Below, piece after piece: positions 7,687 through 39,442 of a stretch of 40,221 nt of DNA. The translations under genes were made by a program, and so were the position numbers. Source of the stretch: a virus; the IMG/VR virus record IMGVR_UViG_3300044675_005140, positions 1-40,221 of that record. One strand, given 5' to 3'. The notes beneath the pieces were generated by a model. It saw only the letters and a program-made list of their open reading frames with translations. It did no database searches and was not told the DNA's origin. Within the stretch, counting starts at the first letter, position 1, and each line of letters opens with the position of its first letter.

Positions 7687-9066
7687 TTAAATTATTGTCG
7701 GCAGTGGCACTGCAGGAGAAGATGCAGCACATGCTGTACCTGTACCAAGAGTTTCAATGTTACAAGATGAACCACAAGCAGTTAACCATGCAGTTAACAA
7801 ATTGTAAATTGCTAAACCAGCTGCTCCTAACGTACCTGTTGGGTTAGGATTAGGTGTAACAATCTCTAACAAATACTGATCATTATCAAATGTACCAGTT
7901 GGGTTATAGAATCTAGGAACATTATGCTGAATAAAAATTCTATCATAATAAGCAGTTCTAGATAAACCAGTTGCATTAAGAATGTCATTACCTTGAGTAA
8001 TTTCTCGGATCCTTAAATCTGTAGCAAAATGATTTTGTCTGTAAGCTTCAGAAAGAATCAAGTCTCTTACTACAGTTTCTCCAATACCATTTAATTGACG
8101 ACCATAACATTGTACACCAATACAAAGAGCTTCAAACTCACATGGTGAACCAGTATAGTCTACTTCAGAAGCATAGATTCTTAAAGGCTCAACTTCATAG
8201 AAATCTGTAACTTGGAAAGTACAGTTTTCAAATTTAGTCTCAACATAAGCTCCATTAAGAACCATTCCGGCACACATTGTAGCAGCATAAGCTGCTTCAG
8301 TCCATTGACTAAAATATAATGTAGTTACATTACCAAAACTTGCAGGTTTAGTTACATTATCTGGATAATAATATGTCCAGTTAGTACCATTGTCATTTGT
8401 AAAAGTTACAACTGGAAAAACAAAGTTTTTCATAATTGGATCATTTACAATCTGCTGAGCCCATTGAATAAATACTCTACGTGGATCAACCGGGGTTGGA
8501 GCAATTGTATCATCTGCACAACATCCTGTATATGCCTCAAGAGTTTCATATGCATTGTGATTCAAAGTTCTAAGTGCAGGAGAACCTTTAACATCTAAAC
8601 GTAGATAATAAGTTTCACCACATAAGAACTTTTTACAGCAAGTACCAGAAGTTTCTCCTGGCTCACTTGAGTTAGGTGCATTTGCAGGAACAATTGTCCA
8701 AGGTGTGATACCAGCATGCAATACATAGTTTTGTGCTAAGTTTGCAGGAGCAGCATAAAGTCTGCTTACATACTTAGATTTAACTACTTTAGACTTGTTT
8801 GATTCTTTATAACCTCCGTGGAAAGGTCCAATTTTATCATTGTCCATCAATGCACCTGATGCAAGGATAAGTTCACAACAATCATCAACACCTCCAGGAG
8901 TGTTACGGATTTGCCAAGATTGTGGATCAATGAAAGTAATTTGACCAGCAGCCAAAGTATTTGCAACTGAAGTACCTAATACAGTACCGTTTGCAAGAGG
9001 AGAAATACCATTATTGGCACCAGTAGCCAAAAAGGTTTTTCTAAACGCATGATTAAAATAAGCCAT
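7687..9066 (-). CDS. Major structural protein of unknown class (459 aa)
   Basis: Begins MAYFNHAFRKTFLAT. Early Gly/Ala/Asn-rich segments are followed by GPFHGGYKESNKSKVVKSKYVSRLY and long beta-rich sections with paired cysteines (DDCCEL, TCCKKFLCG, TGCCADD). It has its own putative promoter (GTATATTATA-like at 9099-9107) and its own strong terminator, and is monocistronic like the capsid gene. That arrangement suggests high expression, so a major virion component such as a tail or muzzle protein is plausible. I recall similar sequences from uncultured Bacteroidota phages annotated only as structural. It could be a tail tube or sheath-type protein, but no diagnostic motif lets me choose. Confidence 0.6.
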   Translation of the reverse strand: MAYFNHAFRKTFLATGANNGISPLANGTVLGTSVANTLAAGQITFIDPQSWQIRNTPGGVDDCCELILASGALMDNDKIGPFHGGYKESNKSKVVKSKYVSRLYAAPANLAQNYVLHAGITPWTIVPANAPNSSEPGETSGTCCKKFLCGETYYLRLDVKGSPALRTLNHNAYETLEAYTGCCADDTIAPTPVDPRRVFIQWAQQIVNDPIMKNFVFPVVTFTNDNGTNWTYYYPDNVTKPASFGNVTTLYFSQWTEAAYAATMCAGMVLNGAYVETKFENCTFQVTDFYEVEPLRIYASEVDYTGSPCEFEALCIGVQCYGRQLNGIGETVVRDLILSEAYRQNHFATDLRIREITQGNDILNATGLSRTAYYDRIFIQHNVPRFYNPTGTFDNDQYLLEIVTPNPNPTGTLGAAGLAIYNLLTAWLTACGSSCNIETLGTGTACAASSPAVPLPTII

Positions 9067-23784: not shown

Positions 23785-24140
23785 CTTGCTAAGAATTTAT
23801 AATCTAATAATATACTACCCTCTGTTTGAATTTTTAAGTTTGGATTTATCATCACTACTTTTTTATTATTAGTGTCTTTTAGAACCAAGTTGTTTTTCTC
23901 ACATTTATTAATACAGTTTCTTACTGTTTGCTCTGATTTAAATATATTGTATTCATCAGAAGCTTCATAACAAAAATGAGATAATTCAATTGGACCAAGT
24001 GTACTAAGCAAAGTCAAGCACTCCAAATCAGAATCACTCAAAGTTATTCTTGAAATATAACAATGAGTTAGTATCTGATATTTAATAATGTCCTTTTTAG
24101 ACATTACTACTTTTTTCTGTACTTGATTTACTAAAGCCAT
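23781..24140 (-). CDS. Winged-helix-like regulator candidate (119 aa)
   Basis: Helical core with a likely helix-turn-helix: SDLECLTLLSTLGPIELSHF, then SEQTVRNCINKCEKNNLVLK, which reads as a recognition helix followed by the wing (DTNNKKVVMINP). An alternative start lies at the internal MSKKD (12 codons later). ATGA overlap with the IHF-like gene downstream, 2-nt gap upstream. It could control late transcription; that is inference from fold and position only. Confidence 0.6.
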   Translation of the reverse strand: MALVNQVQKKVVMSKKDIIKYQILTHCYISRITLSDSDLECLTLLSTLGPIELSHFCYEASDEYNIFKSEQTVRNCINKCEKNNLVLKDTNNKKVVMINPNLKIQTEGSILLDYKFLAR

Positions 24141-24142
24141 GT

Positions 24143-34662: not shown

Positions 34663-34711
34663 AACACCTTATACTAGTTCAAAGGGTGAAAATAATACTA
34701 GTTACTTCCTT

Positions 34712-34727
34712 ACTGTTAGCAAACAGT
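34712..34727 (+). ncRNA. Compact hairpin ACTGTT/AACAGT
   Basis: ACTGTT (34712-34717), loop AGCA, AACAGT (34722-34727). No T-run follows, so probably a structural hairpin, not a terminator. Confidence 0.4.
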
Positions 34728-34732
34728 GACAA

Positions 34733-34922
34733 ACCTGTGGGGCTACTATTGGGTTCTATATTTCTCCTGCAAAGAGACTTATAGTGCTACATATCATTTG
34801 CAGTGATATAATCCAAAGTTAGTGCAGACTTAAAAATCAGGTATTTTACATATAGCATAATGATAAAGCTATGTGAGTTTAATTTAAACTATTTCGTCTT
34901 ATAGTATAGCAGAGCCCCTGGT
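34733..34922 (+). ncRNA. Candidate multi-branched RNA domain (190 nt)
   Basis: Closing helix: ACC (34733-34735) and GGGGCT (34739-34744) with AGCCCC (34913-34918) and GGT (34920-34922), unusually GC-rich for this DNA. Enclosed: CTGCAAA/TTTGCAG (34767-34773, 34797-34803), CATATAGC/GCTATGTG (34849-34856, 34868-34875, one G-U) and the palindrome AGTTTAA-t-TTAAACT (about 34877-34891). No gene fits. Not matched to a known RNA family. Confidence 0.4.
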
Positions 34923-34957
34923 AGGTGACTGGACTATTTGTATGATTGTATTTATCT

Positions 34958-35017
34958 ATTCTCCTCCACGAGATTCCACTTGGGAGAATACAGCTGACTG
35001 AAGTGGAATTCAGTTTT
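34958..35017 (+). promoter_or_regulatory. Attenuator-like set of competing hairpins
   Basis: Three pairings compete. A: ATTCTCC (34958-34964) with GGAGAAT (34983-34989). B: ATTCCACTT (34973-34981) with AAGTGGAAT (35001-35009). C: ACTGAA (34997-35002) with TTCAGT (35009-35014), followed by TTTT-type sequence. A and C can coexist; B interlocks with A and excludes C. This is the logic of an antiterminator (B) versus terminator (C). It lies upstream of the three small genes at 35178-35679. Ligand or trigger unknown. Confidence 0.5.
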
Positions 35018-35046
35018 ACTCTGTAACTATAGAACTCAGCGGTTCT

Positions 35047-35071
35047 TGCTATGATGTAGGAAGTCATGGCA
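35047..35071 (+). ncRNA. Hairpin TGCTATGA/TCATGGCA
   Basis: Arms 35047-35054 and 35064-35071, eight pairs including one G-U, 9-nt loop. One of several helices filling the 34580-35177 gap. Confidence 0.4.
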
Positions 35072-35125
35072 GTTATGCAGTTTATGCAATTAAGCATATT
35101 TTATTATTCTAATTAACTATCAAGT

Positions 35126-35144
35126 CCTGTGTACCTAGCACAGG
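35126..35144 (+). ncRNA. Hairpin CCTGTG/CACAGG
   Basis: CCTGTG (35126-35131), 7-nt loop, CACAGG (35139-35144), flanked on both sides by the direct repeat CAAGTCCT (35121-35128 and 35146-35153, the first overlapping the stem). It ends the structured gap before ATG 35178. Confidence 0.45.
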
Positions 35145-35177
35145 CAAGTCCTCAAAACATTCTTAAAACTAAAAATT

Positions 35178-35312
35178 ATGATTTTTAAAACTATGATTGA
35201 ATTGTTCCAAGGTAAGTTAGCCAAAGTTCAATATGTGAAGTATTCTAATGGTAAGCAAGTAAAAAGAGTACTTGATAAGAATAATATTCCGGAAGCAATT
35301 ATTGAGCTATGA
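35178..35312 (+). CDS. Small basic protein (44 aa)
   Basis: Reads MIFKTMIELFQGKLAKVQYV, then KYSNGKQVKRVLDKNNIPEA. The TGA stop overlaps the next ATG (ATGA), which supports translation. Soluble, basic, no recognisable motif. First gene of a three-gene mini-operon preceded by the structured gap and the attenuator-like element. Confidence 0.55.
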   Translation: MIFKTMIELFQGKLAKVQYVKYSNGKQVKRVLDKNNIPEAIIEL

Positions 35313-35452
35313 TAAAAGAATATCTTTCATTTACAATAGGCCTGGGTGTAATAACAGGCCTTATTATATCATTAGGTGAATATATTACTGAATGTATAAT
35401 AGCATCAACTATCTTTTGGGCATTGATGCTTATAACAATGTTAAAAAACTAA
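35309..35452 (+). CDS. Small membrane protein (47 aa)
   Basis: Starts MIKEYLSFTIGLGVITGLII and continues with SLGEYITECIIASTIFWALM and a short basic end (MLKN). Two hydrophobic segments (about 5-21 and 27-44), so probably a small inner-membrane protein. ATGA overlap with the preceding gene; two bases separate it from the next ATG. Size and topology suit an ion-flux or exclusion peptide. Confidence 0.6.
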   Translation: MIKEYLSFTIGLGVITGLIISLGEYITECIIASTIFWALMLITMLKN

Positions 35453-35454
35453 AT

Positions 35455-35679
35455 ATGGAACAGAACGGAAAAATTGCATTTGCATTTACTTTATATGCTA
35501 TCATTACATTCTTTGTTGGATGTATTGTAGGAGCATACAATGTTAAATCTAAGACTATCAAGACAGAATACTTCTTGGAAGTCTCTGAGGATTCTATTTG
35601 GGTAGAATCTCAATCAGGTAAAGTGTATCAAGGTAAATATATTGACCTTGACTCCCTGATTTGCATGGACAATATCTAA
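35455..35679 (+). CDS. Membrane-anchored small protein (74 aa)
   Basis: Start ATG 35455 (MEQNGKIAFAFTLYAIITFF) chosen since it follows the previous stop by two bases; a longer frame from 35392 overlaps that gene. N-terminal membrane segment (about 8-27), then an extracytoplasmic-looking domain (NVKSKTIKTEYFLEVSEDSI, WVESQSGKVYQGKYIDLDSL). Reads like a one-pass anchor with a small beta domain. Followed exactly 10 nt after the stop by the conserved hairpin at 35690-35712. Confidence 0.6.
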   Translation: MEQNGKIAFAFTLYAIITFFVGCIVGAYNVKSKTIKTEYFLEVSEDSIWVESQSGKVYQGKYIDLDSLICMDNI

Positions 35680-35689
35680 AGACATATCC

Positions 35690-35712
35690 TAAGCATGATA
35701 TAAAACTGCTTA
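35690..35712 (+). promoter_or_regulatory. Twin 3' hairpin element, copy A
   Basis: TAAGCA (35690-35695), 11-nt loop TGATATAAAAC, TGCTTA (35707-35712). Matches copy B at 37287-37309 (TGAGCA, loop TGACTATAAAC, TGCTCA), including one compensatory change. In both cases the stem starts 10 nt after a stop codon. Probably a 3' processing or stability element. Confidence 0.6.
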
Positions 35713-35713
35713 T

Positions 35714-35901
35714 ACTCTCATCCAATTGCAGGAATCAGGTTTTATATAGTTGTGTTTAGGCACGTAATGCTATATAAAATGAGTAGGGTGACTCCTTCTG
35801 AAAGAAAGACTACCTCTGGGATTATAAGTGTGGTGATATTATCATCCATGAGTAACGCTTAACAAGTAGTAAGAGGTCAAGGGTTGCAACCTTGTGAGAG
35901 T
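35714..35901 (+). ncRNA. Cloverleaf-like structured RNA with T-arm-like hairpin (188 nt)
   Basis: P1 ACTCTCA/TGAGAGT (35714-35720, 35895-35901), P2 TTTTATATAG/CTATATAAAA (35740-35749, 35770-35779), P3 GAGT/ACTC (35781-35784, 35791-35794), P4 ACCTCT/AGAGGT (35812-35817, 35872-35877), P5 CAAGG/CCTTG with a 7-nt loop (35878-35882, 35890-35894). P4, P5 and P1 abut with no spacer, as in a tRNA's variable, T and acceptor arms. The 3' end is followed by ACTAA, as after the tRNA at 39354. Could be a tRNA-derived or tRNA-like RNA with a large insertion. No anticodon arm can be assigned. Confidence 0.45.
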
Positions 35902-35914
35902 ACTAATTAAATTA

Positions 35915-35935: not shown

Positions 35936-36148
35936 ATGGAAGTATTTACGGTAAACAAATGGTTTTGGAATTATGATGGTAATCATTATCATAAATGGAT
36001 TGAATCTGAAATAGTCTCTTATCATGCTACAATAGAAGGAGCAAATGCTAAGATATCTTCTCTTCCTGATAAAGATGAAAAGATTACAGATGAGTATGAT
36101 GAAACATATTCTATCTATTTTGTATCCTCTATTGTAGTTGAGGACTAA
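35936..36148 (+). CDS. Small acidic protein (70 aa)
   Basis: Start ATG 35936 (MEVFTVNKWFWNYDGNHYHK) chosen because it follows the leader motif; an upstream in-frame ATG at 35894 lies in the structured RNA. Aromatic N-terminus, then AKISSLPDKDEKITDEYDET and a beta end (YSIYFVSSIVVED). No motif recognised. Flanked on both sides by structured gaps. Confidence 0.6.
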   Translation: MEVFTVNKWFWNYDGNHYHKWIESEIVSYHATIEGANAKISSLPDKDEKITDEYDETYSIYFVSSIVVED

Positions 36149-36162
36149 CGGTAAACTATATG

Positions 36163-36270
36163 TTACAAGAGTTTGGAGTCTAGAATGTCTTTTACTTGTA
36201 ATCCCTTCTTTGACCTTTCTGTGGGTAATCAGAAAGTATTAATGCACCATTCTCACTTCCCAAGGGTGAG
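36163..36270 (+). ncRNA. Series of hairpins in the 36149-36493 gap
   Basis: TTACAAG/CTTGTAA (36163-36169, 36195-36201), CTTTCTG/CAGAAAG (36215-36221, 36230-36236) and CTCAC/GTGAG (36252-36256, 36266-36270), all perfect. With the element at 36272-36346 they fill most of this 345-nt gap; no gene fits in it. Confidence 0.45.
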
Positions 36271-36271
36271 C

Positions 36272-36346
36272 AGTTGTAATAGGCTCATTGCTGTAAAGCA
36301 TGTAAGTAGTGGAAACAGTTAGGTTCAAATCCTACATATTACAACT
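36272..36346 (+). ncRNA. tRNA-like element (75 nt), degenerate
   Basis: Perfect 10-bp closing stem AGTTGTAATA/TATTACAACT (36272-36281, 36337-36346). Just before the 3' strand is a T-arm-like hairpin TAGG-TTCAAAT-CCTA (36320-36334... loop 36324-36330). An inner TGCT/AGCA hairpin lies near 36289-36300. No good anticodon arm, T33 or D-loop GG, so not a working tRNA as I read it; a decayed or mimic tRNA is possible. Confidence 0.4.
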
Positions 36347-36427
36347 GAGTGCAGAGGGATTAATCTAGGATATGATACGTAGACCTAGCTACAAACTGAA
36401 ACAATGGAGGGTTATAGATGCTCCCGA

Positions 36428-36450
36428 GCAGGTGCAAGGCCTGCATTTTT
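36428..36450 (+). terminator. Hairpin GCAGG/CCTGC with T-run
   Basis: GCAGG (36428-36432), 7-nt loop, CCTGC (36440-36444), then ATTTTT. A weak intrinsic terminator that would end the RNA of the preceding gap before the 260-aa gene. Confidence 0.45.
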
Positions 36451-39353: not shown

Positions 39354-39427
39354 AGTCCCATAGCTCAGCTGGATAGAGCAACTGCCTTCTAAGCAGTAGG
39401 TCACAGGTTCGAATCCTGTTGGGACTA
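39354..39427 (+). tRNA. tRNA-Arg, anticodon UCU
   Basis: Canonical cloverleaf: acceptor AGTCCCA (39354-39360) with TGGGACT (39420-39426), D-arm GCTC/GAGC, anticodon arm ACTGC-CTTCTAA-GCAGT giving anticodon TCT, T-arm ACAGG-TTCGAAT-CCTGT. All stems are perfect. Discriminator A, no encoded CCA (next bases CTA). It reads AGA, a codon used often in this AT-rich phage, and probably supplements the host's Arg tRNA pool. Confidence 0.97.
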
Positions 39428-39442
39428 CTAAAAATTAAAATT

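Follow-up and report, generated by a model that had tools for sequence, protein, structure and literature searches.

The sequence analysed, called the window here, is an IMG/VR virus record of 40,221 bases. Phage structural genes (portal-like and major head protein matches) lie on its minus strand, and its plus-strand region contains many small ORFs and non-coding stretches. An element at 35714-35901 sits between two short ORFs, one at 35392-35679 and the other with its ATG at 35936. The only tRNA detected in the window by ARAGORN and Rfam is a tRNA-Arg at 39354-39428. The closest relative by capsid, Leptolyngbya phage Lbo-JY46 (28.6% identity), does not have the element.

A hairpin TAAGCA...TGCTTA, which is TGAGCA...TGCTCA in relatives, lies just 5′ of the element at 35690-35713 and is possibly a processing or terminator-like element. 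Farther upstream, 34706-35199 comprises a hatchet ribozyme and, after it, a conserved stretch of about 350 nt that is 70–83% identical across contigs and has no obvious conserved ORF. The features are as follows, with window positions.

34706-34842, hatchet ribozyme, 81.6 bits (Rfam)
35713, plus strand, position −1, pairing with +1 (35902) as the eighth P1 pair
35714-35720, plus strand, 5′ strand of P1, the acceptor-like stem, ACTCTCA (shell covariation)
35721-35732, plus strand, U spacer and P2 hairpin CC-AATTGCA-GG at the D-arm position, with loop L2 (covariation, L2–L5 co-change)
35733-35877, plus strand, variable interior, a singleton among 55 interior clusters and contig-specific among the loci fetched
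35740-35779, plus strand, interior hairpin with perfect 10-bp arms TTTTATATAG/CTATATAAAA (sequence and MFE fold)
35812-35877, plus strand, P4 with arms ACCTCT/AGAGGT at 35812-35817/35872-35877 (MFE fold only)
35878-35894, plus strand, P5 hairpin CAAGG-GTTGCAA-CCTTG at the T-arm position, with loop L5 (paired in all shells; L5–L2 pairing)
35895-35901, plus strand, 3′ strand of P1, TGAGAGT, pairing with ACTCTCA
35902-35905, plus strand, 3′ flank A-C-T-A of tRNA type (A73-C74-N-A; flank counts among 120 contexts)

The original prediction described a 7-bp acceptor-like stem, a 5-bp hairpin with a 7-nt loop, and a 3′ strand of P4, a P5 and a 3′ strand of P1 that abut without a spare base. All three descriptions hold. 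P1 is extended by the eighth pair, the P5 arms are CAAGG (35878-35882) and CCTTG (35890-35894) around a loop of 7 nt, and the contiguity is found both in the sequence and in the fold. The ACTAA trailer is indeed equal to that of the tRNA-Arg. In the MFE fold, P4 closes a second interior domain that adjoins P5; neither P4 nor the remaining window interior has relatives among the loci fetched. Taken alone, the window sequence folds unremarkably (z −1.59, with 12 of 200 shuffles equally good). Because this single-sequence fold is not significant, the case depends on relatives.

Constant shell and variable interiors

Through downstream proteins, 48 loci were gathered. In BLAST comparisons among them, conservation was confined to short blocks at the two ends of the element. 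The copies have the consensus ends ACUCUCAUCCAA(UU)GCAGG (5′) and CAAGGRUUGCAACCUUGUGAGAGU (3′), and the 3′-shell pattern is present in at least 119 IMG/VR stretches. Total length ranges from 46 to about 197 nt, and interior length from 5 to ~160 nt. The 46-nt copy in L059 consists of little more than the shell, with an interior of 5 nt. A member of 88 nt has a cloverleaf fold. The element is co-directional with neighbouring ORFs (96 versus 5 upstream, 96 versus 1 downstream), as expected for a co-transcribed RNA.

In large records (100–136 kb), one copy is found in 11 of 14 and two in 3 of 14, a load of one or two for a genome of ~115 kb; these records were picked for holding the element, so that the counts report copy number and not prevalence. 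The 14 are what is left of 16 after removal of two tRNA-Glu false positives. Such matches of the pattern to tRNA-Glu anticodon arms (CAAGGTTTTCAACCTTG) occur in L189, L191, L192, L198 and L199 and were excluded, and misassigned 5′ partners were excluded from the final covariation counts.

Rfam 15 has no family for the element, either at the gathering threshold or at E ≤ 10. A DNA search of INPHARED phages with the window region and one short element gave no matches, and nor did a search of a genome collection with the 3′-shell pattern. The element is not described in the literature searched, in which subscription journals are thinly covered. It belongs to a large RNA family absent from Rfam 15 and carried by many freshwater-type phages.

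Covariation was examined in 45 distinct shells from 118 elements. The shell is near-constant, consisting of a P1 of 7–8 bp, a tiny P2 (CC-AA(UU)GCA-GG) and a P5 (CAAGG-RUUGCAA-CCUUG) adjoining P1, with G-U pairs present among the shell pairs. Two-sided changes, whose counts are not probabilities because the shuffles take no account of relatedness, numbered 23 in P1 (4.7 in shuffles; 97.5% of cells paired) and 4 in P2 (0.4 in shuffles; 96.7% paired). P5 is 100% paired with only 2 two-sided cells (0.1 in shuffles), a thin support because P5 hardly varies. The eighth P1 pair, −1:+1, is paired in 115 of 120 contexts, as T:A in 103 and A:T in 10. Related phages therefore conserve the helices with compensatory changes, the point on which the original prediction had staked itself. 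Among the three helices it had singled out for covariation, P1 is clear, P5 is thinly supported and P4 has no relatives to compare.

The loops covary as well. At the central L2–L5 pair, 35 shells have C:G and 10 have U:A, with no mismatch in any; at one outer position, 39 have G:C and the other 6 (the AAUA/UUAGAA form) have lost the pair. When L5 variants were gathered by L5 sequence alone, ignoring L2, the predicted L2 change was found in L077, L190, L195 and L196, and L194 fits in part. L088 and L170 have an interior in common with L158 and L166, yet both loops differ together. Loop co-change is thus seen within four interior families (L077, L190, L195 and L088/L170), which is a stronger argument for L2–L5 pairing than the shuffle counts. 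Judged from these sequence comparisons, L2 and L5 are predicted to pair as in the tRNA elbow.

Conserved unpaired bases are few (U8, the AA of L2 and the ends of L5), and conservation lies mostly in the helices and the loop–loop contact. The sequences of P1 and P5 are nearly invariant, more so than a purely structural need would demand, so that sequence recognition or DNA-level homogenisation may matter. The near-invariance is compatible with homologous exchange by way of the shells, and such exchange would account for the occurrence of one interior with different flanks. Such exchange and a role as RNA do not compete.

Interiors are unrelated between copies while the shell stays constant. The interiors of 116 elements fall into 55 clusters, 37 of them singletons, including that of the window. 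In the largest cluster (analysed with the shell and one recognisable relative), 96.2% of cells are paired, and 20 cells are two-sided versus 5.5 in shuffles, 16 of them within interior helices. A second cluster has 4 interior pairs with two-sided changes. Compensatory changes in two clusters indicate that interiors are structured domains, and by this comparison they appear to be folded domains each of its own kind. Outside the shell, no convincing occurrence of interiors was found, only two partial matches, L061/L080 and L110/L088, both weak. In the largest cluster, the UUAUGAU loop was considered as an anticodon and the idea dropped, as the loop varies without tRNA logic. The main point beyond the original prediction is that the shell is constant and the interior, by all appearance, exchanged between phages.

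Other structured RNAs occur nearby. Element B (window 36237-36363) has the form ATGCACCATT-(CTCAC TTCCCAAG GGTGAG)-CAGTTGTAAT (variable) ATTACAACTGAGTGCAGAGGGA and is another shell with a variable interior, found near about 40 copies of the main element. Its outer stem is TGCAC/GTGCA or TGTAC/GTACA, its hairpin stems also change on both sides, a pseudoknot UUCCC/GGGA is possible, and it has no Rfam match. Element C (window 36403-36445), also present in L005, is GGAGGGTTATAGATGCTCCC followed by a hairpin GCAGG-TGCAAGG-CCTGC (5 bp, 7-nt loop). Two further RNAs recur in roughly a dozen contigs each, U2 (ACCACAAGGTTTCAGGC...GACTTGTGGT) 36–40 nt before the element and E (GTATACCTGAGCATGTAGACAAACTG) 22–30 nt after it. 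Examples of the two are at L076 ~8004-8083 (minus strand) and L145 2910-2970, and at L150 545-590 (minus strand) and L106 5600-5650.

Likeness to tRNA and a parallel set of shells

In the 45 shells, a 7-bp acceptor stem adjoins a 5-bp T-stem with a 7-nt loop as in tRNA. A D-position hairpin starts one base after P1, with a stem (P2) of only 2 bp. The L2–L5 pairing is analogous to the tertiary pairing of D-loop and T-loop, with bases that differ from G18-55 and G19-56. The 3′ flank is A-C-N-A, with C at +2 in 108 of 120 and A at +4 in 90 of 120; C three bases beyond +2 is scarce (10 of 120 elements). All 37 tRNAs of these contigs likewise have C next to the discriminator, a count in which ARAGORN may favour CCA-like ends. 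In most phage tRNA genes of all fetched loci, this C is encoded without a complete CCA, the usual triplets being CTA and CAA.

Other marks of tRNA are absent. L5 is RUUGCAA, rarely AUUAGAA or AUUACAA/G, which departs from the T-loop consensus UUCRANN and has no U54..A58 motif. No anticodon arm is present, as the interior differs between copies and shrinks to 5 nt. Neither ARAGORN nor Rfam (RF00005) matched the element as tRNA, even in a relaxed search at E ≤ 10. ARAGORN called no tmRNA, Rfam matched the element to neither tmRNA nor YrlA / Y RNA, and no Ro60/TROVE gene was found in 16 large phage records. By these models, the element is neither tRNA nor tmRNA. Its predicted secondary structure has the arrangement of that half of a tRNA which comprises the acceptor, T and D arms.

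The suggested copy of a T-arm/acceptor junction thus survives as a stem on a 5-bp/7-nt arm and not as a canonical T-loop. Three identities had been offered. A tRNA with a large insertion is not supported, as model matches, T-loop consensus and anticodon arm are all missing, and the likeness to tmRNA is reduced to an analogy of design. A new tRNA mimic, the best of the three, is largely upheld by the acceptor-like stem, the elbow-like loop pairing and the A-C-N-A end.

The tRNA model did match two loci with long inserts. In a wider set of contigs, canonical acceptor, D and T sequences, mostly of tRNA-Leu type (AGUCAGGUGGCGGAAU...ACAGGUUCGAAUCCUGUCCUGACU-ACAA), enclose replacements of the anticodon and variable arms. 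About ten element-bearing contigs hold such canonical top halves with a replaced anticodon arm, mostly Leu-like; L018, L033, L065, L073, L079, L088, L094, L168 and L193 have such shells and also carry the present element. The tRNA-Leu-like ones lack an anticodon arm and differ in interior without any relation (L033 9391-9513; L065 11743 and 11970; L079 10332; L088 7860; L018 8364; others).

One such 5′ shell is found in IMG/VR in at least 139 distinct sequences from at least 113 loci, with at least 116 interior clusters. Among the at least 139 sequences listed, 100 have interiors longer than 45 nt, 11 have an anticodon-arm-like hairpin, 134 have C after the discriminator and 33 are called by ARAGORN; the shortest may include ordinary tRNAs. 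Up to 7 shells occur per locus among the matches listed. Matches in bacterial genomes are few, mostly in short contigs of uncultured bins, and three of them are Chitinophagaceae or Sediminibacterium, which hints at Bacteroidota hosts.

Like the element, these shells enclose unrelated interiors between acceptor, D and T arms and end in an A-C-N-A tail. Unlike it, they have canonical D- and T-loops and other shell sequences, so that the two are set side by side by layout and not by homology. In the isolated Leptolyngbya phage Lbo-JY46, L203 ~24041-24141 holds a tRNA-like shell, apparently without annotation, whose interior is longer than normal (77 nt from the start to the T-arm).

A scaffold model, its alternatives and known systems

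We lean, with some reserve, towards the reading that window 35713-35902 encodes a tRNA-mimicking scaffold RNA that delivers a lineage-specific structured domain. By comparison, the shell, with P1 adjoining P5 and the P2 loop paired with the P5 loop, follows the plan of the acceptor/T/D half of a tRNA, and a structured domain differing between lineages takes the place of the anticodon and variable arms. The RNA would be transcribed with its neighbours in an operon. Judging from the shape and the A-C-N-A tail, it is probably released by host tRNA-processing enzymes that would recognise the acceptor/T/elbow shape, with RNase P acting at the 5′ end and RNase Z, or trimming and CCA addition, at the 3′ end. 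That the elbow of tRNA serves as a surface for recognition is known (PMC4810234). The shell would also shield the RNA from exonucleases. Least certain, the interior might be the working part that binds or blocks a factor of the host or of a rival phage, and phages might trade interiors when targets shift; that the interior acts as an 'effector' is our hypothesis, and neither a target nor a partner protein came to light in the phage contigs.

A cis-acting, riboswitch-like leader controlling the next gene is an unlikely alternative, to which the spacing lends something: the element ends 34 nt 5′ of the ATG at 35936, several contigs have a copy 39–48 nt before another gene start, and structured interiors could be aptamers. 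However, what lies downstream varies between an MKIHLKSK-type gene and structured RNAs B, C, D or E at 7–30 nt, and L013 and L018 share an element but differ in what lies downstream of it. We give the same low weight to a DNA cassette or recombination site, in which P1 would serve as terminal inverted repeats, the shell as homology arms for interior exchange, and the RNA fold would be incidental. Near-identical shells and interiors that swap with different flanks are what it predicts, but loop–loop covariation, G-U pairs, covariation inside interiors, an orientation fixed relative to genes and usually one copy per genome are not, and exchange by recombination can coexist with a role as RNA.

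With its hypervariable interior in a constant shell, the element could plausibly also be a stable RNA that carries an antisense guide to transcripts of the phage or the host. This reading is slightly less likely again, since the longest antisense match to the own contig averages no more than in shuffles (9.84 versus 9.91 nt, 95 elements), antisense or identity to the own contig showed no excess over shuffles, three ~115-kb contigs gave no excess of complementarity, and interiors keep their own helices. That the shell is an undescribed self-cleaving or self-processing RNA is quite improbable. The hatchet ribozyme ~0.9 kb upstream in the window and hatchet motifs 0.6–2.3 kb upstream in a dozen other contigs invite the idea, but against it stand the small number of conserved unpaired bases and a conservation seated in the helices and the loop–loop contact. 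The weak single-sequence fold score and the missing tRNA match would agree with a tRNA pseudogene in decay or with folding by chance; given compensatory changes and a 3′ shell that hardly varies in at least 119 stretches, we find this scarcely credible.

Extending the scaffold reading, we tentatively propose, without counting on it, that tRNA top halves may be a general display scaffold in environmental phages, in which at least two shells, the present one and one resembling tRNA-Leu, would each present a large, fast-changing repertoire of structured RNA effectors matured by the host tRNA pathway, possibly for RNA counter-defence. If true, RNA effectors would have a new route of evolution, by exchange of dozens of structured interiors within a constant, elbow-forming shell, and the swap pattern would make the targets of such phage RNAs directly testable. 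Because standard tRNA finders miss the family, and call a minority of the Leu-like shells (as tRNAs), the repertoire is probably unseen in viral metagenomes.

To our knowledge, only a small number of tRNA-like RNAs occur in bacteria and phages, and the architecture of each known example is fixed. Species 1 and 2 of phage T4 are phage-encoded stable RNAs in the tRNA region, to which the element is likened by description only, and we know of no variable-interior family for RNAs of this type.

In tmRNA (SsrA), the upper half of a tRNA-like structure is joined to a large other domain, and RNase P makes the 5′ end (PMC3985003); in contrast, the element has no canonical T-loop or tag reading frame, and its interior is exchanged between genomes. 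YrlA is a modular RNA with a domain that resembles D, T and acceptor arms and is modified by tRNA enzymes (PMC8394870), whereas the element has its variable part enclosed by the tRNA-like shell. Both RNAs are precedents for other domains borne on halves of a tRNA. The Bacillus cereus pseudo-tRNA tRNA-Other is a tRNA-like RNA working outside translation (PMC3399842), but it has an anticodon and is a single RNA, not a shell with an exchangeable interior. Engineered aptamer-tagged tRNAs and tRNA scaffolds also belong here, in which a tRNA chassis displays an inserted RNA and the tRNAs are still active in translation (PMC7590224). Those scaffolds are artificial; by analogy, the element may be their natural counterpart and, if so, a natural precedent for synthetic tRNA scaffolds that display other RNAs.
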